Below are positions 14,971-30,926 of a stretch of DNA of 30,926 nucleotides, piece by piece. Below the pieces are notes generated by a model. It ran no database searches, was not told the origin of the DNA, and saw only the letters and a program-made list of their open reading frames with translations. Position numbers and translations under genes: made by a program. The DNA comes from a virus: IMG/VR virus record IMGVR_UViG_3300020475_000637, positions 1 to 30,926 of that record, one strand, 5' to 3'. How positions within the stretch are numbered: position 1 is the first letter of the stretch; each line of letters opens with the position of its first letter.

Positions 14971-15186
14971 TTATCCCTCAATCTCATCTCTAATCTTAGT
15001 CTTTTCTTCATCGCTACCTTTAGCATCAGGAACTTTAGTGGCTTTAGGTTTACTTAATTTAACTTCTTCACCAGTATATTCATCTTCATAAAAGTCGTCT
15101 TTATTACCTATAAGTTCAACGGCTTTTTCTGTTGCTTTCTTTAGCAATTCTGCTATCTTTTCTTCTTTTGTTACTTTTTCCGGCAT
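14971..15186 (-). CDS. Small highly charged protein (71 aa)
   Basis: An unrecognised protein rich in Lys, Glu and Asp, predicted to have an N-terminal helix (KEEKIAELLKKATEKAVELI) and a disordered C-terminus. It overlaps the stop of the 82-aa gene by one base and ends two bases before the ligase start, so it is coupled to both. No metal site or membrane segment is seen. It may be an assembly accessory or a partner of the ligase; this is only position-based. Confidence 0.6.
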   Translation of the reverse strand: MPEKVTKEEKIAELLKKATEKAVELIGNKDDFYEDEYTGEEVKLSKPKATKVPDAKGSDEEKTKIRDEIEG

Positions 15187-15434
15187 TAATAACCACCACT
15201 TTCTATTTTTGATACCATATCGCTAATTTCGCTCCATTCCATCTTAGCAATCTTATCTACATCAGTATCACTAGATGCAGAAATTATTGGAGTAGGTGTT
15301 GTTGCGACAACATATCCTGACTTCATCAGCAAATTATTATCATCAAATACTGCTGTCTCCAATCTATTTACTTTTTCTACTAATGCTTTTAATAACATTA
15401 ACATTTCTTCTCTTTCATTACTTTCTTTATTCAT
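15186..15434 (-). CDS. Small coiled-coil protein (82 aa)
   Basis: Residues 1-30 form a clear heptad-like coiled coil (MLMLLKALVEKVNRLETAVF). They are followed by a Thr/Pro/Ser-rich linker and a second short helix ending ISDMVSKIESGGY. GGAGAGGAAAAAG precedes the ATG, and the gene overlaps the end of the 553-aa coiled-coil gene by eight bases. The family is unknown. A small oligomerising factor in capsid assembly would fit. Confidence 0.6.
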   Translation of the reverse strand: MNKESNEREEMLMLLKALVEKVNRLETAVFDDNNLLMKSGYVVATTPTPIISASSDTDVDKIAKMEWSEISDMVSKIESGGY

Positions 15435-17317: not shown

Positions 17318-18019
17318 TTAATTCCTCCTTCTTTCTTGGCTATACCAAAAATTCTTGGACATTTTAAGGTGATTATCTAATTGGGTATATTTTTGTTGTA
17401 AACAAGCATCATAAAAACCATACCTCTTACCATGTAGTTCTTGTTGAACTTGATGCCGTTCCCAATAAGAAGTTCTTGTATTTAATTCTCCTTCTAGGTC
17501 TTCTTTGGTATTATATTTTTTATTACGACTACCATGACGACCAAGACGACCATGATGTTTTTTATCATTTTCTCTATATAAAAGGTCTCTAAGTGCTATA
17601 TGTCTATCATCCATAAACTTAATTGTAAATGTATCTTCATTATTACTAGCAAAAAAGAAACCAGGAATAATTTCATTAGTATTTGAAATTTTAAAGTCAG
17701 GAAAATCATGATATATTTCGTCAAATCGAAAACACCGACTAAAATCTATTATCATATTAGAAAATCGCCTTATATGTTCATGAGAAAATAGTTCATCTAT
17801 AGTAGCATAATATTTATCAAAATTTTCAGTTCTTGTCATATCATAATAAGGGGTAAGTTTATACAACGAATCATTTTTGCTCGATGTATAACTTCCATCA
17901 AATTTAATTTCAGTATTATCAGGAGGATTACCAAAGTATCTTTTTAAGAAAGCATACACTTTAGTTAAATGTTTTCCTTGCTTACCAGAATCGGCTTTAA
18001 TTATTTCAAACCAATTCAT
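17318..18019 (-). CDS. Tagged protein (N-terminal MNWFEIIK) of unknown function, 233 aa
   Basis: The first eight residues are MNWFEIIK, one of the repeated N-terminal tags of this window. The body is unrecognised: aromatic-rich strands and helices (FKISNTNEIIPGFFFAS), a basic His/Arg/Gly segment (KKHHGRLGRHGSRNKKYN, about 160-177), and a Gln/Tyr-rich C-terminal helix ending SKNFWYSQERRRN. There are only two Cys and no clear metal site. It directly follows the portal gene with a four-base overlap and has a GGAGAG site. If the tag targets proteins into proheads, this would be a candidate internal protein near the portal; the basic patch suits nucleic-acid contact. Confidence 0.75.
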   Translation of the reverse strand: MNWFEIIKADSGKQGKHLTKVYAFLKRYFGNPPDNTEIKFDGSYTSSKNDSLYKLTPYYDMTRTENFDKYYATIDELFSHEHIRRFSNMIIDFSRCFRFDEIYHDFPDFKISNTNEIIPGFFFASNNEDTFTIKFMDDRHIALRDLLYRENDKKHHGRLGRHGSRNKKYNTKEDLEGELNTRTSYWERHQVQQELHGKRYGFYDACLQQKYTQLDNHLKMSKNFWYSQERRRN

Positions 18020-19680
18020 GGGACTCTCCTCTCTGTTCGTGAATCTACGTTTTGATTACCTGCTTCTCTAGGTAAACCACTAAATCTTTTATCTGGGCCT
18101 GTTTCCATAGAAGGCTTATTTCTTGTTTTAGGCGGTTCAGATTTTACTTTTTCTGGTTGGCCTGCTTCCGCCATAGAAGGTTTAGTACCTGCTTCCATCA
18201 TTTGTCCTAATTGTGATTGGTCTATGTTTGTACCTGCATATCTATCTGGAGTAAACTCTTCACCTTTACCTTGTCCTTTGCCTTGTAGTTCTTTAGGCTT
18301 TTCTTTTTTGTAGGTAAACCTTCCTTTATCATCCATTTCAATTTCAAATCCTAAATTCTTAATAGAACCTGCTATATTAACTTCTATCTCTCTCTTTCTT
18401 AGTTTAGCAATTTCATCTTCTTCTTCTGATGGTGGAAGTTTTAGAATCCAATCAGTTATTCCAAACTCTTTAATAATAAAAGGGAACACATAATTATTCC
18501 AAATAGTTTGAGCCATTTCTACTGCACGATTAGTAACAAGTATTTGCATACCTTCATTGTTTAATCCACCACTAGCAGAATTGTCTGACATAAATACTTT
18601 ACTTACTCCATAGAATCCTGAAATTCTATCTCTTAAATCATCCTTTACTGCTACATAGTCCATTTCCTTTAGACTGTCCATAAACTTAATCCATTCAATA
18701 GAACCTTTACCGTTTTCTGCTTCTATTCCCATTACAGGAATGAAATGAGGGTCTTGTTCCATCTTTTCTTTGACACCACGCCAAAATGATTTCATAGAAT
18801 CAATATTTCTAGTTTGAACTGCTAATAAACCTCTTGGCATTCTACTCTTTGAGTAAGATGAATTAACATAGTTTTCCATAGCCAATAATGTAGTTATATG
18901 ATTCCATAAAGTTAAGACAGGAGATAAACCATAAAGCCTACTAGGATTATATTTACTAAAGTGTAATACTTCTCCTTTAATATAATACTGTTCTTCTCCA
19001 TTACATCTATTAACATAATAAACAGGGTGCATAGGAGAACCACATTGTTCACAAGAACCTACAGGGTCTTCTGATAATTGGTCTCTATGATTTAAACAAG
19101 TAAATCCTTGTGTTCCCTTTTCTCCATTTTCATCTGTATAAATAGACATTGTTACAGGGTCGCCCCTATACATATCTTTTATTTTATGTAGTTTAATTTC
19201 GCCATCAGAAGTTAAAAAATATTCTTTCTTTAATATAATATATGCATCATCCATTATATTCAAATCATCTTCTAGTTCTTTTAATACATCTATAAACATT
19301 TGGTCAGAATCATTAACATAACCCTCTAAAAAGTCTTGTGCATATTGTAGTTGTTCTCTCTTAGGTTTTACCAGTTTAACTGATTTACATTGAGTGCATT
19401 GAGTTACAGGTTCTTTATGTTCATAACCGCAATCTTGGCACTTATAAGCAAATGATTCTTCCCATATATATCCTCTTCTAAATATCTCATTCTTTAATTG
19501 AGTAGTGCAAGTTCTAACAATAACAGATTGTTGAGCAACATGATACAACACAGGGGATGTAATCATGTAGTCTGTTGCCTTTTCCTGTATTCCAGGATTA
19601 AACACCTTTGTATCTTTAGGTGTTGGTGTTGCTCTTCTAAATAAATTAGAAATAGCAAATCTTCTCTTTTCTTCTACCAT
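18016..19680 (-). CDS. Portal protein with two inserted zinc ribbons
   Basis: A portal protein of about 554 aa, consistent in size and domain pattern: an N-terminal arm, the wing, then the stem/clip region with LHFSKYNPSRLYGLSPVLTL, a motif typical of phage portals, followed by a long helix (LLAMENYVNSSYSKSRMPRG) and VSKVFMSDNSASGG. It forms the 12-fold ring through which DNA enters and leaves. Two zinc-binding sites are inserted in the wing: Cys81, 84, 95 and 98 (CQDCG, CTQC) and Cys195, His198, Cys210 and Cys213 (CEQCG). The C-terminus (about 465-554) is a disordered Pro/Gly/Gln/Glu tail. ATG at 19680 is chosen because GGTGATT lies just upstream; GTG at 19692 overlaps the previous gene. Confidence 0.88.
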   Translation of the reverse strand: MVEEKRRFAISNLFRRATPTPKDTKVFNPGIQEKATDYMITSPVLYHVAQQSVIVRTCTTQLKNEIFRRGYIWEESFAYKCQDCGYEHKEPVTQCTQCKSVKLVKPKREQLQYAQDFLEGYVNDSDQMFIDVLKELEDDLNIMDDAYIILKKEYFLTSDGEIKLHKIKDMYRGDPVTMSIYTDENGEKGTQGFTCLNHRDQLSEDPVGSCEQCGSPMHPVYYVNRCNGEEQYYIKGEVLHFSKYNPSRLYGLSPVLTLWNHITTLLAMENYVNSSYSKSRMPRGLLAVQTRNIDSMKSFWRGVKEKMEQDPHFIPVMGIEAENGKGSIEWIKFMDSLKEMDYVAVKDDLRDRISGFYGVSKVFMSDNSASGGLNNEGMQILVTNRAVEMAQTIWNNYVFPFIIKEFGITDWILKLPPSEEEDEIAKLRKREIEVNIAGSIKNLGFEIEMDDKGRFTYKKEKPKELQGKGQGKGEEFTPDRYAGTNIDQSQLGQMMEAGTKPSMAEAGQPEKVKSEPPKTRNKPSMETGPDKRFSGLPREAGNQNVDSRTERRVP

Positions 19681-19685
19681 AATAA

Positions 19686-19949
19686 TCACCAATCACGACA
19701 AGCCATACATCTTGCTGAATAGTCGCTTCCTTTACATGAAGAACAGTTATGTCTTGCTCTAAATGATTTTCTTCTTTTACCCTTTCTTTTACCAGAAACA
19801 GTAACTCCTTTTTGACCCCAATGAACTCGCTTATATCCACCACTACCATTAGGAACACATTTCATCCATTTCTTACCTTTACGAGTGGAAGATGTTTTTT
19901 TGGTTGCTCTTGTGCAACGGCCTTCTTTGATTATTTCAAACCAAGTCAT
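19686..19949 (-). CDS. Tagged basic zinc-knuckle-like protein (87 aa)
   Basis: It begins with the tag MTWFEIIK. The body is strongly basic (GKRKGKRRKSFRARHNC, about 52-68) and ends in a Cys-rich motif: CSSC, then C and CRDW. The SFRARHNC signature followed by spaced Cys and a final Trp is shared by small structural proteins of many marine tailed phages, in my recollection, where its role is not well described. Four to six Cys/His ligands would bind zinc. It lies just before the portal, seven bases after the 42-aa gene, with GTGAT as ribosome binding site. A nucleic-acid-binding, virion-associated protein is a fair inference. Confidence 0.75.
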   Translation of the reverse strand: MTWFEIIKEGRCTRATKKTSSTRKGKKWMKCVPNGSGGYKRVHWGQKGVTVSGKRKGKRRKSFRARHNCSSCKGSDYSARCMACRDW

Positions 19950-19953
19950 TATA

Positions 19954-20082
19954 TCACTTCTTTATTGGTACACAATTAGGAACTTGTTTTCCATTCTTAT
20001 CTTTCATACCTATTTGTTCATAACCATCCCAACAAGGATTCTTCTTAACAATATTAAACCATATATTATTCGACATAGACAT
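19954..20082 (-). CDS. 42-aa tagged micro-gene with the GMK...VPNCVP module
   Basis: ATG at 20082 (alternatively 20076) gives 42 residues. After MSMSNN comes the tag NIWFNIVKK, followed by PCWDGYEQIGMKDKNGKQ and VPNCVPIKK. The C-W-x-G-Y-x-x-x-G-M-K ... V-P-N-C-V-P module is one I know from tailed phages, often as a small domain within a larger protein. Here it stands alone on the tag. GGTGTATTT precedes the start, and TGA leads into the next tagged gene. Two Cys may bind metal or form a bond. A tiny gene but well supported by motif and context. Confidence 0.65.
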   Translation of the reverse strand: MSMSNNIWFNIVKKNPCWDGYEQIGMKDKNGKQVPNCVPIKK

Positions 20083-20114
20083 AAATACACCATTCTAAAT
20101 AAGTTTCTGCAGTT

Positions 20115-21440
20115 CTAAAAATCCATCTTTGAATTCTCTTCAAGTTTTGTAATACCATCAATATCTATATCCCATGCTTTCCAATCAAATCTTGTATTAT
20201 CACTATGATTATAATATTTCATTAATTTAAATAATTCTGTTTTTCTTAAAGAGAACCAATCTTCTTTTTTATTTTCTTTTTTAATCTTAAGTAATTCTAA
20301 TAACACTCTAGCATTATTCTTTTTTAATTTAAAGTGTGGTAAACATTTTGTTAATAATTTTTTTATTTCTCCACCCGAATAAAAATTAAGTCTATTAATT
20401 AATCTTGTATCTTGAGGGGATTTTTGGTCTAAGTGCAACCTACCAATACCTAACGACTTGTGCATCTCTTTCATAAATGCTTTGCCCCTATCTCCTGTCG
20501 CAACAAGCCCTACTCTTGGGTTATGGTTTTTATCCATTGTTATGTAGCCATCAGAATCAATAAAGGCTGCTGTATATGCCCAGATGTTTTTCTTAATATC
20601 ATCATTGATTTTATAATATGCTCCATCAACGCTTGTAATATTTTCTTCCTTTGCTATCTTAGCAATAATTTGAGGAGATGTTTTATCATATAAATTTCTA
20701 GGTAAAGAATCATGAAGTTGTCTAGCAGAAATACCAGGATTATTACAAACAGAATCTAATATAGATTTTTTAATTGTTTCTTTTGGTGAGTAACTATGTG
20801 GCGTTTCTTTCATTACAGAAGTAAACTGTTTCTTTAACTTACTCATGTTTTTACTAAGTTTTGAATATTCGCTATTATAAGGGATATCTTTAATTTCTAA
20901 TCTGGCTTCCCAATATTTACATAAAATATCTATAACTTGCCTTTTTTGTTTTTCAGAAGTAATAGAATTTAATTTAATTAATTTATCTTCATTATAGTTC
21001 ATTTCTTTCAAAGGTATCTTATATTTTTTAACCCAATAAATACTATCAACACAATTATCTAAATAATTACTGTATTCTTTAATTAAAGTATCAATAGACT
21101 CAGTAAACGTAATTTTATTTTCTCCCTTTAATGTTCTTCTAAATCCTCTCATGTCTTTAATAAGGTCGGGAATAGATTTACCTTCAATTTCATATTTTTT
21201 TGGATATTCAAATAGATTTTTCTTTGCTTCTGATAAACTAATTTCTGTTTCTTTGGCATATTTCTTTGCAATATCATCATGACTTCTAATTGGCTGATTT
21301 TGCAACCAATTATGAGAAGCAAGTTTTATTTCCTCTTTAATTCTATTAGCATCTCTCTCAAGTTGTTCCATTTCACTTTCTTTATCTGCTGCTTCTTGTG
21401 CATTATCTGCTAAGGCTTGTAATCTTTCTGATTTAGTTAT
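20115..21440 (-). CDS. LAGLIDADG homing-endonuclease-like protein
   Basis: About 440 aa. The C-terminal part has the LAGLIDADG pattern: AAFIDSDGYITMDKN (motif Asp near residue 298 of the longest form), a core strand (PRVGLVATGD) and a second stretch of the same fold (IGRLHLDQKSPQDTRLINR, then a helix). Only one clear motif is seen, so the enzyme may act as a dimer. Residues 224-282 look like a winged helix (NPGISARQLHDSLPRNLYDK), and the first 220 residues are helical. It is a free-standing gene: the terminase before it ends normally. Homing enzymes cleave DNA at a target and promote their own spread. The ribosome binding site AGGTGATTAAT points to AUA at 21440 as start; GTG at 21449 lies within that site. 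Confidence 0.75.
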   Translation of the reverse strand: MTKSERLQALADNAQEAADKESEMEQLERDANRIKEEIKLASHNWLQNQPIRSHDDIAKKYAKETEISLSEAKKNLFEYPKKYEIEGKSIPDLIKDMRGFRRTLKGENKITFTESIDTLIKEYSNYLDNCVDSIYWVKKYKIPLKEMNYNEDKLIKLNSITSEKQKRQVIDILCKYWEARLEIKDIPYNSEYSKLSKNMSKLKKQFTSVMKETPHSYSPKETIKKSILDSVCNNPGISARQLHDSLPRNLYDKTSPQIIAKIAKEENITSVDGAYYKINDDIKKNIWAYTAAFIDSDGYITMDKNHNPRVGLVATGDRGKAFMKEMHKSLGIGRLHLDQKSPQDTRLINRLNFYSGGEIKKLLTKCLPHFKLKKNNARVLLELLKIKKENKKEDWFSLRKTELFKLMKYYNHSDNTRFDWKAWDIDIDGITKLEENSKMDF

Positions 21441-21443
21441 ATT

Positions 21444-21451
21444 AATCACCT
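21444..21451 (-). promoter_or_regulatory. Strong ribosome binding site preceding an AUA codon
   Basis: AGGTGATT is followed after AAT by ATA ACT AAA, in the frame of the homing-endonuclease-like gene. At the equivalent spacing, neighbouring genes have ATG. The only conventional upstream option is GTG, which is part of this site itself. Confidence 0.45.
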
Positions 21452-21454
21452 GTC

Positions 21455-22858
21455 TTAAAAGTTTAGTCCTATAAGCCCTGCTTTTTGGCCTATTATGGGT
21501 GTCTGTGGAGCATCAAAAATATCCATGTCGTCAAGGAGTATAAACTGTTCAGAAGCCCCCTGTGTGGCGGCATTTGCTAACGCCAAGCCCATAACTAAGT
21601 CGTCATGCGCCCCTACTCCTTCAAACTTTCCTGAATCTGTAATGGAAAACATGGATAATTCTTCTATTAGAGTATTAGTCACTTTTCTGCTATTATTATC
21701 TCCATACGGAAGATGAATTTTTCCATTTTCAAAGTTCATTTGGAGATTTAAAATGATTTCTTGCTTTTTTCTTCTTGTCGTATCAAAGTCTTTTACATTC
21801 AAATCAGAAACGTTCCTTAATTCTTGAGTAAACGCCTTTGCGAAGGTATTTGTTTCATATAATATTGCTTCCGGTTCAAATATTTTACCAACAATCCTTA
21901 ATTTATCAATATTTTCTCTAAATTGAACATTTTTTGACCTATCTACATGAACTATTGTTTTATTCATATGGTCATCTACTTCTAAGACCATAATTACGTT
22001 ATAATCTCCATCGGTTGATATAGCAGGGTCAACCCCAACATAATATTTGTAGCCTTTATCTTTTCTATGTCCTAGTTTTAAAATGTATTCTTTATTTTTT
22101 GCCTTTTCTAAATGGTCTGGCCCAAATAATGCTGTTCCTGTTGAAACTGGAATACATAAATACTCTCTTGTAAACTTTAAAGAACCTATTTCTGCTTTTC
22201 TTTGCATTAAAGAATCAAAATCCCATCTTTCTGGCCATAAAGGTTCTTCTAAAGCATTTAAACATGGATACTTTCTAACAGTATAAGCAGGATTTTCTTC
22301 TAATTGTGAGAAAATATCAGTATATGTAAAAGGAGTCCCAATCATTCTTAAATTAGCAGTATGGTGTAACGTTGGAATCATATCTCCAAAAAACCAATCT
22401 GTTACTCTATTAATACCTGCTAGACTAAACTCTTTTAAAGGGTCATCAATAATAATCTCTTGAGGGTGAAGTCCTCTAATCTGAGAACCTACTGACCTTT
22501 CAAGTATAGAGTTTCCATTAGTTAATGTAATGTTACCAATAGCCCATCCTCTTGATGGTTTAAATCTTTTTAATGCAGGAATATTAAAATATCTATCTAT
22601 TTCTCTCATATGCACTAATGTCTGCTTTTGATTGGATGAAATATATAGCATTTGATATGGCGGTTCTTGAAATATTAAATTCCATACAACCCATGAATGC
22701 ATAAAGACTGATTTTCCGTGGTCTCGACTACAAACAATAACAGTTCTATCTGTTTTTTCCATTGTTTCTAACCATTCTTCCATGTAAGAAGGATACATCA
22801 TACCTAAAACATTTTGAAAGAAATAAGGAAATGAATGTTTAGATAACTCCATATCCAT
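21455..22858 (-). CDS. terL: Terminase large subunit
   Basis: This is the packaging motor and nuclease. ATPase motifs: Walker A CSRDHGKS (residues 43-50), Walker B IIIDD (135-139) and a coupling motif GTP(F/T) at 174-178. The RNase H-like nuclease has D277 in YYVGVDPAIST, E335 in AILYETN and D419/D420 in GAHDDLVMG. All key acidic residues are present, so it should be active. It binds the portal and the small subunit, hydrolyses ATP to pump DNA and cuts concatemers. The first ATG is at 22858, but the frame is open upstream, and a GGAGGAG site points to an AUA at 22891, giving 11 more residues (IEIENLDFTHR). Length of 467-478 aa is normal. Confidence 0.92.
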   Translation of the reverse strand: MDMELSKHSFPYFFQNVLGMMYPSYMEEWLETMEKTDRTVIVCSRDHGKSVFMHSWVVWNLIFQEPPYQMLYISSNQKQTLVHMREIDRYFNIPALKRFKPSRGWAIGNITLTNGNSILERSVGSQIRGLHPQEIIIDDPLKEFSLAGINRVTDWFFGDMIPTLHHTANLRMIGTPFTYTDIFSQLEENPAYTVRKYPCLNALEEPLWPERWDFDSLMQRKAEIGSLKFTREYLCIPVSTGTALFGPDHLEKAKNKEYILKLGHRKDKGYKYYVGVDPAISTDGDYNVIMVLEVDDHMNKTIVHVDRSKNVQFRENIDKLRIVGKIFEPEAILYETNTFAKAFTQELRNVSDLNVKDFDTTRRKKQEIILNLQMNFENGKIHLPYGDNNSRKVTNTLIEELSMFSITDSGKFEGVGAHDDLVMGLALANAATQGASEQFILLDDMDIFDAPQTPIIGQKAGLIGLNF

Positions 22859-22888
22859 TCTATGAGTAAAATCTAAATTTTCTATTTC

Positions 22889-22903
22889 TATATTATCTCC
22901 TCC
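22889..22903 (-). promoter_or_regulatory. Ribosome binding site of the terminase with AUA in start position
   Basis: GGAGGAG (22903-22897) is followed after ATAAT by ATA at 22891, then in-frame codons to the first ATG 33 bases on. That ATG has no site of its own. Translation may start at AUA, or an ATG was lost by a mutation or sequencing error. Confidence 0.45.
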
Positions 22904-23489
22904 AAACTCTAGTTCCCATAGATTGAGATGATTTCCATCCTAATGATGTTAATGCTCTACCAACAACAGGTTTCATTTTTGACGGGACTAATTTATATCT
23001 CATGTGCATAGCAATAAAACTTGTACCATAATCATTTTCTATTAATTTATTTTTATATATATCTTTAATTTTGTTATGTAATTCTAGATTATTAGTAACT
23101 AAATTTTCTCCACTAGTTACTTCATTAATGGCTTCTTTAAATAAAGGTAGGACTATTTTCTTTGATTTTCTTATATCTTCTGATGCAAGTTTATCTTGAA
23201 AATTAGATTCAAAGTTTTGACCCATTGATGCTTGAGGAATAGGATTAATTAATGATTCTTGTTCGCATCTTTCATAATTAATTATTATTTTCTCAAATAT
23301 TTTTTCTTCGTCTTTTCCAGACATTTCCATTTGTAGGTCTTCTATCATACCAATTAGTTCATCTGATGGTGAGTTTTTTATTTCACGCAATAATTCATCA
23401 TTAGCACCTAACTTTTCCATTACTTCATAAAATAATTGCTTTGCCTCTCGGAGACAAGGACTTGATTTAACTAAATCGAACCATTCCAT
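22893..23489 (-). CDS. Tagged protein upstream of terminase; candidate small terminase subunit
   Basis: It begins MEWFDLVKSSPCLREAKQ, carrying the shared N-terminal tag. The rest is mostly helical, with a charged helix (DELIGMIEDLQMEMSGKDEE) and a basic, helix-turn-like C-terminal part (MHMRYKLVPSKMKPVVGRAL) ending WKSSQSMGTRVWRR. The gene directly precedes the large terminase, the usual place of the small subunit, which binds the packaging site. But no clear helix-turn-helix DNA-binding domain is seen at the N-terminus, so the small terminase call is tentative. A candidate TATA-like element (23537-23545) lies upstream. I prefer ATG at 23489 to 23498 because of GATGATTAAT. Confidence 0.7.
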   Translation of the reverse strand: MEWFDLVKSSPCLREAKQLFYEVMEKLGANDELLREIKNSPSDELIGMIEDLQMEMSGKDEEKIFEKIIINYERCEQESLINPIPQASMGQNFESNFQDKLASEDIRKSKKIVLPLFKEAINEVTSGENLVTNNLELHNKIKDIYKNKLIENDYGTSFIAMHMRYKLVPSKMKPVVGRALTSLGWKSSQSMGTRVWRR

Positions 23490-23536
23490 ATTAATCATCT
23501 CTTTATGGTCTAAATTTGCCTAAACACCACAGCCCA

Positions 23537-23545
23537 TATATAAAA
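23537..23545 (-). promoter_or_regulatory. Candidate archaeal-type TATA element
   Basis: TTTTATATA on the minus strand lies in a 68-base gap between the 87-aa gene and the tagged gene before the terminase, preceded by a purine-rich GGGA. If used as an archaeal TATA box, transcription would start near 23515. The surrounding DNA is AT-rich, so the match could be chance. Confidence 0.3.
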
Positions 23546-23557
23546 TCCCAAATTATT

Positions 23558-23821
23558 CTAATCATCCTTACTCAATATATTCCTAGCAGTTTGAGAACAG
23601 AATCTTATTTTTTGAGTTGATTCTAATTCCCAAAATGAATTTCTATCTAATCTAAACTTATCTTCAATATGACAACATAATTCATATCTACTCATCTTTG
23701 CAAAATCATCATCTATTTTTAATCCAAGAACAGGGCCAGTAGGATGGACTAACTTCTTATCTAACCAAACATAGGTATTACCCATGAAGGCGATTAACTT
23801 TCTAATTAGCCACTGCTTCAC
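23558..23821 (-). CDS. Small protein of unknown function (87 aa)
   Basis: A small basic protein with an N-terminal hydrophobic helix (QWLIRKLIAFMGNTYVWLDK) and a helical C-terminal half with three Cys (SRYELCCHIEDKF, RFCSQTARNILSKDD). The N-terminal helix might be membrane-associated, but it is short and interrupted by charged residues. GTG at 23821 overlaps the end of the 64-aa tagged gene; ATG at 23785 is possible but has no visible site. It does not have the N-terminal tag. Family not recognised. Confidence 0.55.
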   Translation of the reverse strand: MKQWLIRKLIAFMGNTYVWLDKKLVHPTGPVLGLKIDDDFAKMSRYELCCHIEDKFRLDRNSFWELESTQKIRFCSQTARNILSKDD

Positions 23822-23996
23822 GCAAATCCCTCACTAAATCTTTTGCTAATTGCCTTGTGATACTAGACATAGGAAACTTCTTAATATCTTGCTTTATTTT
23901 TTCTTCGCTATATCTTGGTTTTTGTAATATTTTCTTTACTTTATCATCAATAGCATCATCAACATTATCTTTTTTTGTTAAATTAAACCAACTCAT
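23802..23996 (-). CDS. Tagged small helical protein (64 aa)
   Basis: It starts MSWFNLTKKDN, with the shared tag. The body is helical and charged (DDAIDDKVKKILQ, then RQLAKDLVRDLREAVAN). No Cys. It begins immediately after the stop of the 58-aa zinc gene, so translation is probably coupled. If the tag is a targeting signal, this protein would be among the simplest cargoes. Function unknown. Confidence 0.65.
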   Translation of the reverse strand: MSWFNLTKKDNVDDAIDDKVKKILQKPRYSEEKIKQDIKKFPMSSITRQLAKDLVRDLREAVAN

Positions 23997-24173
23997 TTAT
24001 TCCGCCCCCTTACAAGTAATTGTTTCTGTATGTTCTAAGCAATATGTTTTTTTACATTTTTTACAAGTCATATGCACTGGTCGCCAACAAATATCACATT
24101 CATTTTTTTTAGGCTCTCCCTTTGTATGGCTATTATAATTTAATCTTCTACCTATGACTTCTCGCCATTTCAT
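23997..24173 (-). CDS. Zinc-ribbon protein with a variant tag (58 aa)
   Basis: A frame from ATG at 24173 encodes 58 residues. The start is MKWREVIGRR, a variant of the tag with Arg instead of Phe and no final Lys. The rest carries a zinc ribbon-like set: CDIC, then CKKC, then C and H, and a final Cys (C26, C29, C37, C40, C45, H48, C54). More than four ligands means perhaps two sites. Its ATG overlaps the stop of the previous gene (ATGA), and the next tagged gene begins directly after its TAA. The coupling and Cys spacing make it real despite its length. Confidence 0.65.
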   Translation of the reverse strand: MKWREVIGRRLNYNSHTKGEPKKNECDICWRPVHMTCKKCKKTYCLEHTETITCKGAE

Positions 24174-24658
24174 GCATAGTCCTCACCAAAATCAGAACTA
24201 AATCTGTCCGTTTCTTCTGTGGCTAACATTTCTTCAATATCAAAATCAAGCCCCATATTATCTAATCTTTGAAAGAAAGCAAAATTTGCATACTTCATAA
24301 GAAAATTATAAGATTGAATTTTTATTCCTTCCATATTAATTTCTTCTCTAATGTATTCATCTGTTATACCCATATTCTTACGATACTCAGAAAAATCTCT
24401 ATGTGTAAATATCATTCCTGTTATTTTATCTAATAACTCATCCATTTTACTTGATGTTACATCCATAAAAGACTGATAAAATCTATTTAATAAAGGCTCT
24501 GAATCTTCAGTTTCTAATATGTCAATTAATAATTCGCTAGTCTGTCTATCATTTACAGCAGAATCTATCATTTGCTCTCCTTCATTTCTAATAAAAGTCT
24601 TAATTACAACTTCAGCCAAAGCCTTTTTATAATCTATATTTTCATTCTTCTTCAACAT
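24170..24658 (-). CDS. Helical protein of unknown function (163 aa)
   Basis: An acidic, mainly helical protein: KALAEVVIKTFIRNEGEQMI, a Met-rich middle (SSKMDELLDKITGMIFTHRD) and an acidic end (DIEEMLATEETDRFSSDFGE). No metal or nucleotide motif is visible. ATG at 24658 follows GGTGTTAAAT, the spelling used elsewhere here, so I prefer it to TTG at 24682, which lies deep in the micro-gene upstream. It is followed by the zinc-ribbon gene with a four-base overlap. No family assigned. Confidence 0.65.
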   Translation of the reverse strand: MLKKNENIDYKKALAEVVIKTFIRNEGEQMIDSAVNDRQTSELLIDILETEDSEPLLNRFYQSFMDVTSSKMDELLDKITGMIFTHRDFSEYRKNMGITDEYIREEINMEGIKIQSYNFLMKYANFAFFQRLDNMGLDFDIEEMLATEETDRFSSDFGEDYA

Positions 24659-24725
24659 ATTTAACACCAAGCATTTTTTCAAATTCTTTTAATTGTATTT
24701 CCCAATATTCACAAACTACGCACAC
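24642..24725 (-). CDS. 27-aa micro-gene with CxxC motif
   Basis: GTG at 24725, four bases behind GGTGA, opens 27 codons beginning CVVCEYWEIQLKEFEKML and ending VEEE. It has a CxxC pair and an acidic amphipathic helix. It begins five bases after the 830-aa gene and its stop overlaps the next gene's start region. The GTG start and length leave doubt; a chance frame is possible, but otherwise the 71-base gap is unexplained in this tightly packed operon. Confidence 0.35.
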   Translation of the reverse strand: MCVVCEYWEIQLKEFEKMLGVKYVEEE

Positions 24726-24729
24726 AGGC

Positions 24730-27222
24730 TCACCGATATAAACTCTTCACATGATATATAACTTCTGAGTTTGTTCCTAACCTTTTTGCTAATGATTCAA
24801 ACGAATCAATTTCTTCAACCATTTTAATTATATCATTACTATTTAAATCAATATTATATTTATTCTTCATTAAGTCAATTGTATCAGACATATTTTCAAA
24901 TCTATCTAATTCACAATTATTATAGTATATTGGCTTACCTAACATCTTTCTTATTTCATCATGGGCAGTTAAAATCATCTCATGTTGGGAAGCCAACTTT
25001 TTATCCCTTTGATTTTCATATGCCTTTTGAAAGTTCTTCATTGCTTCCCTACTATATCTATTTGTTTTAAACTCTTCTTTAAATTCATAAAGTAACCATA
25101 AAACTTGATAATAAGAAGTTTTATTTTTCTTTCTATCATAAGGTATATTCTTTATTGGTCTACCTAAAAGTTCTATATCTGAAATATCAAAAGAAGTGTC
25201 TTTTTCTGCTAATCCCCTAAACTGATTAGCAAACCATCTTAAATCATTTTCTTCATTTGAAGGAGCAATGTCCTGTAAAACTTTAAGAACTTTATTTGCT
25301 CTCCTTTCTAGTATATCACTATCTCTTTTTGTCATTTGTGTATATTCAAGATAAGAAGTTAAAGAATTTATTTGAGCAGGAGTAATCATGCCTACAGACC
25401 AATCTCTATATATAGCAAAAGAAAGTTTTCCTAAACTTTCTGGCCCATGATTAATGATAGGGCCTAAAAAGTTTTTATCTAAAAAGATAGGCACTTTTTT
25501 GTAAGGTATCATTAACTCTCTAATAGGATTACCATAGTATTCATCTGCTATTTCTATAAGTTTCATAATATCCTCTGCAAACTTTCCAAATTCTGCTTTA
25601 TCTCTCTTATCTCCAATTCTACCCGTTTCTCTACCAGCAAATAGATTAAACTGTCTATACATTTCATCTCTCTTTGCTTTTTCTTTCTCTCCTCTTGGAA
25701 TAATCCTTTTTCCTTTTTCTTCTGTAGCGCCTGGGGCAAAATCATCAGGAGTAGTTAAACTAGGCAAACTTGAAGGAACTGTAGGAACTTCTAATAATCT
25801 AGCAATAACAGAAATTAATTTTTCATGTAATTCTTTTATTTCATCATAGTCCAAATCTACTCCTGCACTTAATAATATATTAGAGGCATCTGCACTAAGA
25901 GGAACATAAAAATCATTTCTTTCATCCATTTCATCAAATGCTTGGTCTTTATAATCTTCATGAGAATCTAACACACTTTGATAAACAGATTTTAATGAAG
26001 TTCCTTCATTCGCACTATCTAAAATTGATTGTAATTCATCTTTTATATATTCCCATGAAGATATTGAATATCTTTTTGTTATTATTCCAGATTCTGCAGC
26101 AATCATAAACATTGGGTCAACCTTATCAATTAAGGTAATTGCATCCATATCCACTACATTATCTGGGTCTTCTTCTTCTTCTAAGTCCATGCCTTCATCT
26201 AACATTTCTTGTCTAGATTCAGGACTTTCATAATTGAATTCTTTATCATATAAAGTTTGAATTTTTTTTGTTTGAGTTTTATCTAATATTTTACTAATTT
26301 CTTGTAGTAGTAAATTATTTGCTTCTTTATAAGCAGCCGTTGCAGAAACGTTATCCGTTTGGTATTTTAATCTATCAGTCTTAATAATATAATTGTTATT
26401 ATCATCCATCTTTTTATAGATATCAAATAAATCCTTTAATTCCTCATCTAATTCCCCTACGAATTCAAGTGATGGATTTGGCTGTGAGTTAGGTGTTAAA
26501 TTATCTAATAAATCATCATCAATTCTATCCCAAGAATCTAATAAATTTTTAATTATTTTTTTCATTTCATTATATTTAGGATATAGTTTTTCATAATATT
26601 CATAAAGTTCTTCCCTTTCTTCTTTCTTTGAAGGGTCTATTCTTGAAATACTAGTTAATGGTTTTGATAATCTTGAGTATTTAGTAGGAGTATATGTTGA
26701 AATTGCACCCAAGATAGAAGTTAAACCTTTTTCATATTTAGGTAAGTTTTTTATAAAAACCTTAATTTGTTCAGAGATACTTTCTTTTTCTAAATCTGTA
26801 AATGAGGAAAGAGTTATTTCTGTTTCAGATAAAGATTCTTCTAATTGTCTTAAGTTTATATTTTTATTTTGTAATTTAACTCTTGGTGCTATATTTTTTT
26901 GTGAATCTCCTATTAAGACTTGTCTTATTAGATTGATATAAATATCATCCTTTTTAGTTTTCTTAGCCGCATCAACATATCTTTTATTATATGCAGAAGT
27001 AAAGCCTTTACTATCTAACATTTGGCTAATATCATTAGCCAATTCTTCTGGATTAACAGTATCATCATTAAATTGTTCAACATGCTCAGAAATTACATGA
27101 CTATCAGAAAATACTAAACTATCAATTTCATCTAATATTTCATCTAATAATGATTCAGAATATTTTGTTTCTAGTTCATCATATTCTAAACGAATATAAT
27201 CTTGCAATACTTTAATGTTCAT
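24730..27222 (-). CDS. Large unrecognised helical protein (830 aa)
   Basis: No known family was recognised. The protein is acidic and largely helical, with long charged stretches such as EELYEYYEKLYPKYNEMKKI (about 213-232), an Asp/Glu-rich segment (DLEEEEDPDNVVDMDAI), a Pro-rich linker near 490 (VPTVPSSLPSLTTPDDFAPG) and a more compact C-terminal region (WFANQFRGLAEKDTSFDISD). No signal peptide, membrane helix or enzyme motif is seen. It lacks the N-terminal tag but follows a tagged 644-aa gene with no gap. GGAGAGTAATTAG precedes the ATG. Its length and place before the terminase suggest an internal or assembly protein; this is inference. Confidence 0.8.
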   Translation of the reverse strand: MNIKVLQDYIRLEYDELETKYSESLLDEILDEIDSLVFSDSHVISEHVEQFNDDTVNPEELANDISQMLDSKGFTSAYNKRYVDAAKKTKKDDIYINLIRQVLIGDSQKNIAPRVKLQNKNINLRQLEESLSETEITLSSFTDLEKESISEQIKVFIKNLPKYEKGLTSILGAISTYTPTKYSRLSKPLTSISRIDPSKKEEREELYEYYEKLYPKYNEMKKIIKNLLDSWDRIDDDLLDNLTPNSQPNPSLEFVGELDEELKDLFDIYKKMDDNNNYIIKTDRLKYQTDNVSATAAYKEANNLLLQEISKILDKTQTKKIQTLYDKEFNYESPESRQEMLDEGMDLEEEEDPDNVVDMDAITLIDKVDPMFMIAAESGIITKRYSISSWEYIKDELQSILDSANEGTSLKSVYQSVLDSHEDYKDQAFDEMDERNDFYVPLSADASNILLSAGVDLDYDEIKELHEKLISVIARLLEVPTVPSSLPSLTTPDDFAPGATEEKGKRIIPRGEKEKAKRDEMYRQFNLFAGRETGRIGDKRDKAEFGKFAEDIMKLIEIADEYYGNPIRELMIPYKKVPIFLDKNFLGPIINHGPESLGKLSFAIYRDWSVGMITPAQINSLTSYLEYTQMTKRDSDILERRANKVLKVLQDIAPSNEENDLRWFANQFRGLAEKDTSFDISDIELLGRPIKNIPYDRKKNKTSYYQVLWLLYEFKEEFKTNRYSREAMKNFQKAYENQRDKKLASQHEMILTAHDEIRKMLGKPIYYNNCELDRFENMSDTIDLMKNKYNIDLNSNDIIKMVEEIDSFESLAKRLGTNSEVIYHVKSLYR

Positions 27223-29157
27223 CTAATTACTCTCCTTAATTACATTATTATCAAGCAAAACAGTAAAAATATTTCTTACTCCTTTTGTTCTGCCCCTGCC
27301 TCTTCCCAAAGTTAATCCCTTTTGATATTTCTCCTTATTCTCTAAAATATCATCCACCTTTTTCTTAACCTGTTGCATAAATGCTTCTTTAATTTGTGGA
27401 AATTTTTCTTGTGCTTCTTTTATTAATTCATCAACACTAATATTTCCTTGCCTAAAAGACATGGCTGTTTTTCTAAAACCTGTTCTTCCATAATATAAAT
27501 CTAAGAGATAAAGAAAATGTAACATTTCAGATGGTGTATATGCTCCACTTTTACTTGAAACAAAATCTGTATTATAATCACTTAAAGTCGTCTTTAAATC
27601 TTCTTCAACACTCTCAGTTTCTCCTACTTTATATCTCATCAACAGTTTAATAATTTCTGTATATGCAGATTGTCTCATAACCTTAGAATCAGTTTGCCTA
27701 TTTAAAACAAAAGCATTTTGTGAAGGCTTAAACAATATATCAGATACTCTATTAATACCACCATAAAGAGAAAGTTTAGCATTTATATCTTTGTTGAATT
27801 TTTTATTTAGTTCTCTTTTTATTTGATTAGGATTTCTTGGTAAATTTTTAATGAAATCAACTTCTTCTTGGGTAAAGGCACTTCCTGCTGTTTTTGTTTT
27901 AGTAGAAATATATTGATTAACTAAAGTCTGTTGTTCATTAGTCAAGCCATTAATAAATCTTTTAATATTTTTAGGAGAATCTTTTTCTGTTTCTGCTTTC
28001 CATTTGCTTCTAATTTGTAAAAGTAATTGGTCATCTACATTTGCAATTTTATCAGAAGAAGAAAGTAATTCTCTAACTTTTAAAGAAATATATTTTTCAT
28101 TTGTTTGGTCTTCTGCTTGAGTAGTTAATTGTGAAAGGTCAAATGTTGGTCTAGTAAAAATAGTTCTCAATGAAACAGAAAAAATAGGAGGGTCGCCAAA
28201 TATATGATTTCTGGCTTTTCTTGTTGTTGCTGATTTAACAACTGGTTCAGGAATAAACTTTACTTTCGCTCTTATACTCCTAGAAGTCATAAATCTAAGA
28301 TAACCCAAAACTTGTTCATCTCCAGTTACATTGTTTTGATATTTCTTTTTTTCTTCTTCTTCAATTGTAGTTTTAACTTCTTTAGTAGTAGAATCCACAC
28401 CAAATATTTCTAACAGTGGAGATAATTCATAATTGCCTTTTTTAGTAAACAATAAAACATCTTCACCACTTGTAGTAGAATCAATTCTCTTAAAGTCTTT
28501 GGCTTTAATTAAACCTAAAATATCCATGATTTCCAAAGTTTGTTTGTGTGGTGTTTTATCTTCTAATTTAACTTCTACTTTAGAATCAGATTCTAAAATT
28601 TCTACTGGATAATCACTCAATCTATTCTTTAATGTTTCAAGTTTAGATTCTGCTTCGGTATCCATTTGAGATATTTCTGCTACAAGTTCTAATTTAGAAT
28701 TATTTGTGTAAAACAAATCTTCATCGTCTTCTTCAATAAACTCTCTGATTTTACTTTCATTATCTTTAAGTAATGAAGGTTTTTCACCTGCACTTTTTCC
28801 TCTCTTTTTTAAACTGCCTTTACCAACAAATTTTACTAATCCTTCTTTATCTTGTTCTTTTAGAATCTTATCTAATTTTTTAGATAAGGTGGTTTGTGCC
28901 TTTTTATTTTCCCCCGTTATTTCTTCTTTAATTTGTTCAAGTAAAATTTCTGCATTCCTAGATACAGTTTCTACATCAAAACCTGGAGAAACACCCCTGC
29001 CCTCTTTTAGTTCTTCAAGTTTATTCTTAACTCTAATTATATTTTTTTTATCATCGTCTTTTGCTAAAGACAATAAACGCTCTCGCCCTTCGTCAAGTAT
29101 CAACAACCCATCTATTGTATCGGGGTCGGGTAATGCTTTAACGAGTTCAAACCACAT
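27223..29157 (-). CDS. Tagged large unrecognised protein (644 aa)
   Basis: It starts MWFELVKALPDPDTID: the shared tag without the usual second residue. Residues 40-140 are charged helices (KNIIRVKNKLEELKEG), 180-290 has many Lys/Glu-rich segments, and the middle includes repeated basic/beta parts (MTSRSIRAKVKFIPEPVVKS). The C-terminal 180 residues look globular (GGINRVSDILFKPSQNAFVL, LHFLYLLDLYYGRTGFRK), ending in a basic GRGRGRTKG run followed by VRNIFTVLLDNN. No enzyme motif is recognised. TGAGGTTATTAG precedes the ATG. Together with the 830-aa protein it occupies 4.4 kb, a large investment that argues for a virion or early-infection protein. Confidence 0.8.
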   Translation of the reverse strand: MWFELVKALPDPDTIDGLLILDEGRERLLSLAKDDDKKNIIRVKNKLEELKEGRGVSPGFDVETVSRNAEILLEQIKEEITGENKKAQTTLSKKLDKILKEQDKEGLVKFVGKGSLKKRGKSAGEKPSLLKDNESKIREFIEEDDEDLFYTNNSKLELVAEISQMDTEAESKLETLKNRLSDYPVEILESDSKVEVKLEDKTPHKQTLEIMDILGLIKAKDFKRIDSTTSGEDVLLFTKKGNYELSPLLEIFGVDSTTKEVKTTIEEEEKKKYQNNVTGDEQVLGYLRFMTSRSIRAKVKFIPEPVVKSATTRKARNHIFGDPPIFSVSLRTIFTRPTFDLSQLTTQAEDQTNEKYISLKVRELLSSSDKIANVDDQLLLQIRSKWKAETEKDSPKNIKRFINGLTNEQQTLVNQYISTKTKTAGSAFTQEEVDFIKNLPRNPNQIKRELNKKFNKDINAKLSLYGGINRVSDILFKPSQNAFVLNRQTDSKVMRQSAYTEIIKLLMRYKVGETESVEEDLKTTLSDYNTDFVSSKSGAYTPSEMLHFLYLLDLYYGRTGFRKTAMSFRQGNISVDELIKEAQEKFPQIKEAFMQQVKKKVDDILENKEKYQKGLTLGRGRGRTKGVRNIFTVLLDNNVIKESN

Positions 29158-29166
29158 CTAATAACC

Positions 29167-30159
29167 TCAAACACCAAAGTCTGGGTCATCTGATTGTAAG
29201 TCGCTTGATTCAAAAGAATCAAATGGTTCATCAGGATTAGACCTAACTTCATTTCTAAATTCATTATCAAAATAATCGTGTTTCATTTCAAATCTGTTAG
29301 ATACTGCTTTACCTTTTGCAGTAGGAACAGGTAATCTATTCAATCCTTTCGTTTGGCTTCTCCTTCTTTCTAAGAGTCCTTTATCTACAAGTTCATTAAC
29401 ATATTTATTATCATCAACATCTCTTCCCCAAGTTCCTAATCCTAATGATTCTATTTCTTTGACTCTTTCTTGATGCTGTCCTTTTCTGCCTCTTTGACCA
29501 AAAGGAACAATTTGTGTTAATACAAGCAATATTGCTGCAGCACCATTTGTTAAATCGTAATCATCAGCCATAGCGCCTGTAGTCATTGTTTGAGGGCCAC
29601 TCAATGCTTTCCAATATTCTCCACCAAAACCAACAAAGCCATCAATTATTGCTCTATACTTAGTTTTCAATGTTCCTTCGGAATACATAATATTAATTCC
29701 TATTTCATCTTCTTGTAATTCAAAAGATTTTGTTCCGCTTGCTACTTCTCTTAACTTTGGAGAAGCCTCCATTCCTTGTGGTGTTGTTAAAGCGCCCATA
29801 ATCCACGGATTGATAGGCTTTCCTTCTTTATCTAATATAGTAACAAGCATTTGAGTTGCTTTTCTTCCGCCAATGGTAGGCTTCCAATTAAATACTTTTA
29901 TATCATCTCCTGTGTTTCCTAATTCTTCATAAACAGGATAAATTCTTATTTCCGTATTTCTAGGAAATAAATCTATTCCTTCTTGTTGTTTAATATTAAC
30001 AAGAGGGTTATTTTGTTTAGATAACATAGCAACCAATCCAGGAATATCATCTAATTGAGCCATCAAATATCTTCTATCTGTTTCTGTATATGGCGGCGGT
30101 GCCTTCCATATCACAGATTCATCTTCTATCGCTCTTTTAATTATATCAAACCAGTTCAT
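29167..30159 (-). CDS. Tagged protein with winged-helix-like C-terminal part (330 aa)
   Basis: The N-terminus is MNWFDIIKRAIEDE, one of the clearest tags. Residues 80-200 appear to be a globular alpha/beta domain (TQMLVTILDKEGKPINPWIM; TKYRAIIDGFVGFGGEYW). Residues 250-290 look like a winged helix (NKYVNELVDKGLLERRRSQ, then PVPTAKGKAVSNR), and the last 40 are acidic and disordered. A DNA-binding protein carried in the virion would fit, but no family is recognised. Its ATG overlaps the stop of the 92-aa gene; there are two in-frame ATGs (30162 and 30159), and the second gives the best match to the tag. Confidence 0.75.
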   Translation of the reverse strand: MNWFDIIKRAIEDESVIWKAPPPYTETDRRYLMAQLDDIPGLVAMLSKQNNPLVNIKQQEGIDLFPRNTEIRIYPVYEELGNTGDDIKVFNWKPTIGGRKATQMLVTILDKEGKPINPWIMGALTTPQGMEASPKLREVASGTKSFELQEDEIGINIMYSEGTLKTKYRAIIDGFVGFGGEYWKALSGPQTMTTGAMADDYDLTNGAAAILLVLTQIVPFGQRGRKGQHQERVKEIESLGLGTWGRDVDDNKYVNELVDKGLLERRRSQTKGLNRLPVPTAKGKAVSNRFEMKHDYFDNEFRNEVRSNPDEPFDSFESSDLQSDDPDFGV

Positions 30160-30437
30160 CATAAATACTCTCCTTTTTCACAATCCCATCTTTCAAAGCC
30201 ATGATTACCTGCAAAACGGTCTATAAAATCGTTTAAATGGAATCCACATACCTGAGAATCAGTTTTAGGATTTTTGAATGTTGCTTTATTTTGACAGGCA
30301 TTATCTGCTTGGCATTGACAGTCGTTATCATCTCCATCATCATCACCAAACCCCATGAATAAATCTTCATCAATATCTAAATCGGGTTCTACTTCAGCCC
30401 TAGCCATTATTTTAATTAATCCAAACCAACTATTCAT
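30159..30437 (-). CDS. Tagged acidic Cys-rich protein (92 aa)
   Basis: It starts MNSWFGLIKIM, a tag with one extra residue. Residues 18-39 are a very acidic stretch (DLDIDEDLF, GDDDGDDND). A Cys/His-rich motif follows: CQC, C (48), C64-x-x-H67 and C86. This recalls short zinc motifs ending in VCGFH in phage proteins. The ATG at 30437 follows GAGAGGTTTAATT; a start five codons upstream has no better site. It overlaps the 57-aa gene upstream and the 330-aa gene downstream by a few bases. Confidence 0.7.
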   Translation of the reverse strand: MNSWFGLIKIMARAEVEPDLDIDEDLFMGFGDDDGDDNDCQCQADNACQNKATFKNPKTDSQVCGFHLNDFIDRFAGNHGFERWDCEKGEYL

Positions 30438-30603
30438 AATTAAACCTCTCATTTAGATATTCTTTTCTTTTTGAACAACCACAGTCTTTACCTGTTTTTT
30501 TAGATACATAATTTACGGCTTTTTTAATTCCTGTTTTAGTAGTTATTCTTTCTACTGTATCTCCCAAACCTTTATCTTCTTTTAATAAATCTTTCCAATT
30601 CAT
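30430..30603 (-). CDS. Tagged 57-aa protein with TGIKKAV...DCGC module
   Basis: From ATG at 30603, the product begins MNWKDLLKEDKG (tag variant with Lys for Phe), then GLGDTVERITTKTGIKKAV and DCGCSKRKEYLNERF. The second part is a small module I recognise from many tailed phages: G-x-G-D-T ... T-G-I-K-x-x-V ... C-G-C-x-x-R-x-x-x-L-N-x-x-F. Its function there is not established to my knowledge. The SD AGGAGAAAG lies in the upstream gene, and the ATG overlaps that gene's stop. Confidence 0.7.
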   Translation of the reverse strand: MNWKDLLKEDKGLGDTVERITTKTGIKKAVNYVSKKTGKDCGCSKRKEYLNERFNYE

Positions 30604-30764
30604 TGTAACTTTCTCCTATCTTCATCAGACATTTCTGTATAGGTTTCTATAACTTCTTCGTCATCTTTCCTATTACAACTAATGCAATCTTTACCATTCC
30701 AACCTTTAGGATTACCACACCATGAACAATGTTTTCTTGCTTTAATTATGGTTTCCCAACTCAT
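30600..30764 (-). CDS. Tagged 54-aa zinc-ribbon protein
   Basis: ATG at 30764 gives 54 residues: MSWETIIKARKH (tag), then a zinc-ribbon-like Cys set CSWCG and CISC (C13, C16, C27, C30), then an acidic C-terminal helix. Four Cys with 2 and 2 spacing fit one zinc ion. It follows the partial gene at the right edge with a one-base gap and overlaps the next ATG by four bases (ATGA). No clear SD is seen for it; coupling to the upstream gene may help. Confidence 0.7.
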   Translation of the reverse strand: MSWETIIKARKHCSWCGNPKGWNGKDCISCNRKDDEEVIETYTEMSDEDRRKLQ

Positions 30765-30765
30765 C

Positions 30766-30926
30766 TTACTCAATCCTTGTTGTTTCTTTACTTAAATATC
30801 GAAGTGCTTTTTCACTTAATTCATGAAAATGATATAACTTTTTACTTTTTCCTTCAACATGTTTACTTCCATTCATTAAAGTTCCATCAGGATGTTTGTG
30901 AGTTTCCCCAACATATTGTTTTCCGT
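30766..30926 (-). CDS. Partial gene (5' end outside window) with THKHPDGTLMNG module
   Basis: The last 53 codons of a gene enter from the right edge. They read GKQYVGETHKHPDGTLMNG, then SKHVEG and KKLYHFHELSEKALRYL, ending TRIE. The pattern of a strand, then T-H-x-x-P-D-G-x-x-M, then a second His and L-Y-H-F is a small module found in phage and plasmid proteins, in my recollection often near a C-terminus. Four His could bind metal. Whether it has the N-terminal tag cannot be seen here. Confidence 0.7.
   Translation of the reverse strand, partial: GKQYVGETHKHPDGTLMNGSKHVEGKSKKLYHFHELSEKALRYLSKETTRIE

Follow-up and report, generated by a model that had tools for sequence, protein, structure and literature searches.

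A terminal peptide as a candidate prohead-docking signal in a group of tailed viruses

The capsid-targeting sequence of IPI-III from phage T4 is an N-terminal peptide of about 10 residues, in which residues 4 and 7 serve targeting and residues 8 and 10 processing, while the mature regions behind it diverge; prohead cleavage in T4 and in giant phages takes place after glutamate (PMC9026906). In phage P1, the accessory protein DarB, or a reporter, is directed into the head by an N-terminal signal of more than 9 and up to 30 residues; the same paper reports no common consensus among the Dar proteins (PMC9024508). Here we analyze a stretch of viral DNA of 30,926 nucleotides (IMGVR_UViG_3300020475_000637, a linear IMG/VR fragment, referred to as the window), in which unrelated proteins begin with the same short peptide, M-x-W-x-x-[IVL]-[ILV]-K. 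As judged from sequence, this tag is best explained as an independent counterpart of the T4 capsid-targeting sequence.

Two further systems offer points of comparison. In herpesviruses the protease is fused to a coiled-coil scaffold, a C-terminal segment that docks on the shell is repeated on a second scaffold protein, and the maturational cut falls between scaffold and tail. That docking segment is not known to act as a general cargo label. Encapsulins load cargo into a shell of HK97 fold by a short linear peptide, which is typically C-terminal, is found on one or a few cargos per shell, and is not cleaved by a protease.

The tag and the proteins that carry it

A scan for the portal protein yielded 74 related viral contigs, up to 96 kb in length. 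Gene starts in the window and its relatives were called automatically, and 12 large relatives (68-96.5 kb) were processed with a simple caller that is blind to the tag. In these 12 genomes 145 of 1,602 proteins start with M-x-W-x-x-[IVL]-[ILV]-K, compared with 1 of 7,350 internal methionines and a mean of 0.3 after shuffling of residues 2-12. Each genome encodes between 6 and 23 tagged genes. In the window, a looser form of the tag is present in 9 of 36 proteins at the start codons used (mean 0.12 and maximum 2 in 2,000 shuffles). All loci together contain 816 distinct tagged proteins, which fall into up to 369 BLAST clusters by body, an upper figure for independent families because distant homologues may be split. 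Among the bodies of the window that were searched, no Pfam or PHROG family is common. As in T4, a short N-terminal peptide is shared by proteins without sequence relationship.

The 369 cluster representatives give the consensus M-[STN]-W-[EKQF]-[DN]-I-[LI]-K, and 95% of them have the lysine. With position 8 left free in the pattern, lysine is still found in 140 of 150. Conservation stops abruptly after this residue, the information per column falling from 3.3 bits at the lysine to 0.3 at the next residue and about 0.1 further on.

We scanned viral contigs and cellular genomes with a degenerate DNA pattern of the tag; the counts cover the matches listed. Of these, 159 of 169 viral matches are located at the start of an open reading frame, 142 of them with a ribosome-binding motif, and 18 of 118 cellular matches, 5 with such a motif. 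Tag-like starts in cellular genomes, which could have undermined the original prediction, are thus at background among the matches listed. Of the 50 tag-bearing viral contigs among the matches listed, 41 encode the same portal. Among the nine portal-less contigs, a capsid protein gene is present in three and a terminase gene in one, and the other five have 20-82 genes in common with the 12 relatives. A separate virus group for these multi-tag contigs was considered and rejected, given the four capsid or terminase matches and the resemblance of the other five to pieces of genomes from this same group. Among the matches listed in either scan, nothing points to the tag beyond these viruses. Confinement to one virus or to tandem paralogues was likewise considered and rejected.

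Tagged genes account for 182 of 811 genes on the structural strand and for none of 791 on the replication strand of the 12 genomes (Fisher p = 2e-59). The tagged proteins are mostly accessory; on average they have homologues in 1.2 of the 11 other genomes, whereas untagged late proteins have them in 5.1. By crude prediction, transmembrane segments occur in 0.5% of tagged bodies and in about 9% of other proteins. Most of 95 cargo representatives are without a known domain, the exceptions being a Qnr-like pentapeptide protein, a GNAT acetyltransferase, a PAP2 phosphatase and a putative metallopeptidase; searches of the same representatives with PADLOC, PHROGs and NCBIfam gave isolated matches only. 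Inspection of motifs adds several metalloprotease-like tagged proteins with HExxH, and also a PAP2 family with an intact PSGH motif, one case being confirmed by Pfam.

One tagged protein, beginning MTWEEVLKKKKKKSTVNQAGNYTKP, matches proteins of Pelagibacter, Puniceispirillum, Roseobacter and Methylophilales phages. Four of these homologues, from phages of Pelagibacter, Puniceispirillum and Methylophilales, were read; they are 63-81% identical to it, start with MSTKKKSTVNKAGNYTKP, MATPKKKSTVNKAGNYTKP or differently, and carry no tag. Therefore, for this family, the tag is not simply the native N-terminus of the body, the objection that the original prediction had raised against itself.

Separately, a relative of a cysteine-rich tagged family occurs in the unrelated Actinomycetia phage DSL-LC01 (L377), where it is annotated as a high potential iron-sulfur protein and encoded directly before the capsid maturation protease, a location that reads as if this protein were head-associated there too. 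Tandem arrays of up to seven tagged paralogues (L091, at G004:496-4419, L177 and L180) have in common a further N-terminal segment that is conserved, SRQKLR.D..PLPDDDDEDC, whereas the bodies behind it are hypervariable; in long members this segment is repeated internally.

Eleven tagged N-termini had been listed for the window, and on translation every one of them is present at its position on the minus strand, to which the coordinates below for tags, motifs, candidate cleavage sites and the capsid, protease, portal and terminase genes also refer. Ten fit the tag well. MNWFEIIK (17996-18019) starts gene 17318-18019, which encodes a 233-residue protein (gp17318) with a body of unknown fold. Its family of 15 members has an invariant M1, W3 and K8 and a linker of 1 to about 30 residues behind the lysine, and in the AlphaFold model of gp17318 tag residues 1-12 are set apart from the body, with a predicted local distance difference test (pLDDT) score of about 40. 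An attempt to derive a function from the fold was abandoned, the model being mediocre (pLDDT 69) and without a significant PDB match. MTWFEIIK (19926-19949) precedes a basic body in gene 19686-19949 that resembles DUF5754 below threshold, and for which no phage homologue was found. A DUF5754-like body is also present in G031_041 (30799-31620), fused there behind a different tagged N-terminal domain, a case of tag and domain shuffling.

The remaining N-termini were assigned in the same way by translation. NIWFNIVK belongs to the 42-residue product of gene 19954-20082, with the tag MSMSNNIWFNIVK at 20044-20082. MEWFDLVK is part of MINMEWFDLVK (23466-23498; gene 22893-23498), which has tagged relatives in L002, L005 and L015, and MSWFNLTK (23973-23996) starts gene 23802-23996. 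MWFELVK (29137-29157) heads the 644-residue product of gene 27223-29157, a family with nine tagged members; MNWFDIIK is found within MMNWFDIIK (30136-30162; gene 29167-30162). MNSWFGLIK (30411-30437) belongs to gene 30159-30452, the true start of which is probably 30437, and MNWKDLLK (30580-30603) to gene 30430-30603, with tagged relatives in G002, G008 and G053. MSWETIIK (30741-30764) lies in gene 30600-30773, with a probable true start at 30764 and a relative (G008_110) that begins MSWEIIIK. The eleventh, MKWREVIG (24150-24173; gene 23997-24173), is weak and has no final lysine; its relative G008_122 begins MRWTDVIN.

A variant with phenylalanine, MDFLDGFLIRK (17056-17088), begins the 553-residue product of gene 15427-17088, relatives of which start with MSFMDILK or MSFMDVLK. 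The C-terminal part of this protein is a separate tagged protein in relatives, and QILK at the internal fusion junction (15748-15759) is a possible relic of a tag, given its likeness to MTWENILRKAHSPILDKANP and similar N-termini of the unfused proteins.

Profile searches recognise a Peptidase_S78 prohead protease, an HK97-type capsid protein, a portal and a terminase in the window, and one cluster unites the S78 protease, the HK97-like capsid protein, the portal and the large terminase subunit. The portal (18016-19692; profile match and kinship with haloarchaeal virus HVTV-1) and the large terminase subunit (21455-22858; profile match) carry no tag. The nearest kin of the portal and protease are the haloarchaeal tailed viruses HVTV-1, HCTV-5 and HCTV-1, and the relatives of the window encode PolB, an RFC-like clamp loader and a DNA ligase in a replication module on the opposite strand. 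The combination of PolB, RFC-like and ligase genes is as described for magroviruses, the viruses of Marine Group II archaea (PMC10160649). Both sides of that gene content, the halovirus-like structural genes and the PolB, clamp loader and ligase genes, are found here; no magrovirus record was matched in the phage collection searched. The window derives from a tailed virus related to HVTV-1 and, by gene content, would be classed as magrovirus-like. Marine Group II, or Poseidoniales, is an abundant group of ocean archaea.

The same motif in head-assembly proteins

In the proteins of the 12 genomes, the core M-x-W-x-[DE]-[IV] occurs 104 times: 80 copies lie right at the start of a protein, 22 right at its end and 2 elsewhere. 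All 22 C-terminal copies belong to just two families, a prohead protease-scaffold protein and a small predicted coiled-coil protein, gp15186. The original prediction stated that the capsid and tail genes left of 17.3 kb are free of the tag, which is correct for N-termini but not for C-termini, since the protease (11207-12448) and the 82-residue product of gene 15186-15434 both carry it there. No terminal motif was found in tail genes.

The protease-scaffold protein comprises the protease domain (Pfam Peptidase_S78, E = 8e-10), an acidic linker and a coiled-coil scaffold region, as assigned from the profile and a model, and ends with the putative docking motif MSWGDIHNYMAQFEE (11210-11254). The motif was delimited by its conservation in relatives, with W394 invariant in the alignment; it is kept in 62 of 64 distinct relatives, including four with Leu or Ile for Met, and is located 10-17 residues from the C-terminal end where Met is kept. 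The model, which is of low confidence (predicted template modelling score 0.21) and was used for helix positions alone, has a disordered acidic stretch, a long coiled-coil helix (residues 302-380) and a short helix (394-404) that begins at the motif tryptophan. In gp15186, the corresponding motif MEWSEISDMVSKIESGGY (15189-15242; from relatives and alignment) forms a C-terminus that ends with KMDWSEIHKMVEK. It is present, with W or F, in 72 of 72 homologues, 10 of them as variants.

Both proteins have a conserved lysine between coiled coil and C-terminal motif. In the protease-scaffold this is K378 (11294-11296; numbered from the Met at 12427), an invariant column within a variable linker in 33 sequences and a candidate site of self-cleavage. 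In gp15186 it is K38 (15321-15323), a candidate cleavage site in the context N[LI]LMK[SA]G, conserved in 71 of 72 relatives. A third candidate is K30 (11112-11114) of the HK97-type major capsid protein (9798-11201; phrog_24667, E = 1e-20), where a cut at LLK|SAG would remove an N-terminal propeptide of 30 residues; [LIM]LK[SAQG] is found here in 50 of 50 distinct relatives. The conserved sites of the capsid protein and gp15186, of the form [IL]-[LM]-K-[SAGQ], resemble the end of the tag. The capsid protein of HK97 itself reads FNK|SLGS, and its mature form starts at Ser104 (K103|S104). The lysine sites support cutting after lysine by the S78 protease, short of proof. The likeness to HK97 assembly extends to the S78 protease, the HK97-type capsid protein and the candidate K|S cut, whereas the propeptide would have about 30 residues instead of 103, and the docking motif resides on separate scaffold proteins.

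The signal also changes ends within a single late family of 320-480 residues. Of 50 distinct members, 37 have it at the C-terminus (...VKKSWTEIIGTTY, ...AKSWLELLKDF, ...VRSWADILKVT), and several others have variant forms there; G069_105 has it at the N-terminus alone (MNWASLLLKAPP), and three members at both ends. Lys or Arg is found at most three residues before the tryptophan in 33 of the 37 C-terminal copies, while in N-terminal tags the lysine comes after the motif. A basic residue is therefore usually placed between signal and body in either orientation.

Proposed function and alternative explanations

From these sequence patterns, we consider it probable that the tag serves for docking, drawing late proteins into the prohead, and that the S78 protease removes it. 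As a short linear peptide, it would bring late proteins into the procapsid. Because the core M-x-W-x-[DE]-[IV] also ends the protease-scaffold and the small coiled-coil protein, the tagged proteins most likely dock where the scaffold does, at a site that probably faces the interior of the capsid shell. Upon closure of the shell, the protease would cut at the lysine between signal and body, that is, at the [IL]-[LIV]-K that ends N-terminal tags and at the Lys or Arg just before the tryptophan in C-terminal copies. The bodies thus freed inside the head would be ejected alongside the DNA when the next host cell is infected. Packaging, cleavage, ejection, binding to the capsid shell and the receptor are all steps that we infer. 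With somewhat less assurance, we favor a broader view in which one peptide serves as a two-way address label, able to act at either end of a protein and docking scaffold, protease and dozens of exchangeable cargos at one site in the prohead, with the lysine allowing release by the protease. The proposal in the original prediction of a capsid-targeting signal analogous, but unrelated, to that of T4 is in agreement with all evidence gathered, and the alternatives fit poorly.

The T4 sequence resembles the tag in being a short N-terminal peptide on divergent proteins; its order, with targeting residues first and processing residues last, would be matched here if the tag is cut at its lysine. It differs in that the peptide here is M-[ST]-W-x-D-I-L-K, with up to 23 tagged genes per genome, and in that the protease-scaffold and a cargo-like family also carry the motif, C-terminally. 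The T4 machinery relies on a protease of the gp21 family cutting after glutamate, whereas the protease here matches Peptidase_S78 and the conserved candidate sites end in lysine; the tag would therefore work like a capsid-targeting sequence without being a member of the T4 family. The P1 Dar proteins differ in the lack of a reported consensus, while here one consensus serves hundreds of unrelated proteins. Protease, coiled-coil scaffold and C-terminal dock are arranged much as in herpesviruses, with another protease family and another motif. Encapsulins share the loading of cargo into an HK97-fold shell by a short peptide, and differ in the end that carries it, in the number of cargos and in the cleavage proposed here.

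Several observations weigh against delivery of the tagged proteins by way of the scaffold site. The largest tagged cluster (112 members of about 113 residues, encoded beside gp15186) is near-universal rather than accessory, and could be an assembly factor instead of delivered cargo. Other conserved late proteins of unknown role carry no tag, and about 8 of the 50 members of the family with C-terminal signals seem to have none at either end. The core common to both ends comprises only about six residues, and at the next positions the C-terminal copies have His or Asn instead of Leu or Ile. In addition, Ser or Thr at position 2 would normally let methionine aminopeptidase remove the initiator Met, the residue that is conserved in the C-terminal copies.

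These points touch on the alternative that survives best, namely that the motif is a dock among assembly factors, and that the tagged proteins join the scaffold or morphogenetic complex and leave or are degraded before DNA packaging. The presence of the motif on the protease-scaffold and gp15186, and of near-universal tagged families beside scaffold genes, would suit such a role. We nevertheless consider it unlikely, since, unlike assembly factors, the majority of tagged proteins are hypervariable and missing from most relatives, and since enzyme-like bodies (metalloprotease, phosphatase, acetyltransferase) suit delivery.

Less probable still is a short amphipathic helix that places late proteins at the host membrane. 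W, I and L are spaced as such a helix would allow, but a membrane anchor of eight residues with Asp, Asn or Glu on the polar side is short, conservation breaks off precisely at a single lysine, and the tag is absent from all early-strand proteins. The near absence of transmembrane segments from tagged bodies, and the occurrence of the motif at the end of scaffold proteins, also disfavor it. We give equally little credence to a docking partner outside the capsid interior, either a host factor or a different part of the virion such as portal or tail. Many tagged genes do flank the portal and terminase genes. Yet, among the conserved proteins of the structural module, only the protease-scaffold and its small coiled-coil neighbor have the terminal motif in nearly all members; both would act inside the prohead, as their family and coiled-coil form suggest, and the tail genes are without it. 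The lack of tags on the replication strand and the motif shared with the prohead protease-scaffold likewise disfavor a host-factor dock. Chance, base composition, an effect of ribosome binding or start codons, or one N-terminus inherited by paralogues can be dismissed despite the AT-rich genomes and the tandem paralogy of some tagged genes, because the shuffles, the internal methionines and the cellular genomes rule out chance and composition, the bodies form up to 369 clusters, and C-terminal copies of the peptide are beyond the reach of any start effect.

If the peptide is indeed a two-way label for the prohead, the virion would be a modular vehicle for protein delivery, to which horizontally acquired genes are drafted by gaining a tag of eight codons. 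If the tag marks internal proteins as proposed, a sequence scan could by itself list which proteins are predicted inside the virions of these abundant ocean viruses, with no need of an isolate, and hundreds of 'hypothetical' genes would become a testable class of injected proteins. Capsid-targeting sequences would have been invented independently in archaeal viruses, with a hint of how the docking motif of a scaffold can become a general cargo label, and the peptide might serve to load foreign proteins into HK97-type shells. No earlier published description of the motif was found in the open-access literature searched, the magrovirus paper included.

Neighboring genes and minor observations

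Within the head operon, adjoining the protease, gene 12467-14968 encodes an untagged, 833-residue protein similar to ATP-dependent DNA ligases (Pfam DNA_ligase_A_M). It is kept in relatives, which have a second, standard ligase in the replication module. Between terminase and portal, a conserved gene for 444 residues (20115-21449) has the look of a LAGLIDADG-type protein (AAFIDSDGYI...), without a significant Pfam match.

Lone in-frame stop codons (TAG, TGA or TAA) interrupt otherwise intact genes for the protease (G009, G011) or the portal (G047, G062, G064, G066) in some relatives; sequencing error, decay or recoding are candidate causes. A contig of 184,733 bases (G046) contains two complete portal genes on the same strand, about 91 kb apart, which suggests that two genomes were joined in assembly. 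In HVTV-1 (L133), genes 113, 115 and 116, near the portal and protease, have a common repeated segment of the type V[YK][IV].SP.EAPE...GG.[WY][YF], possibly another shared label.

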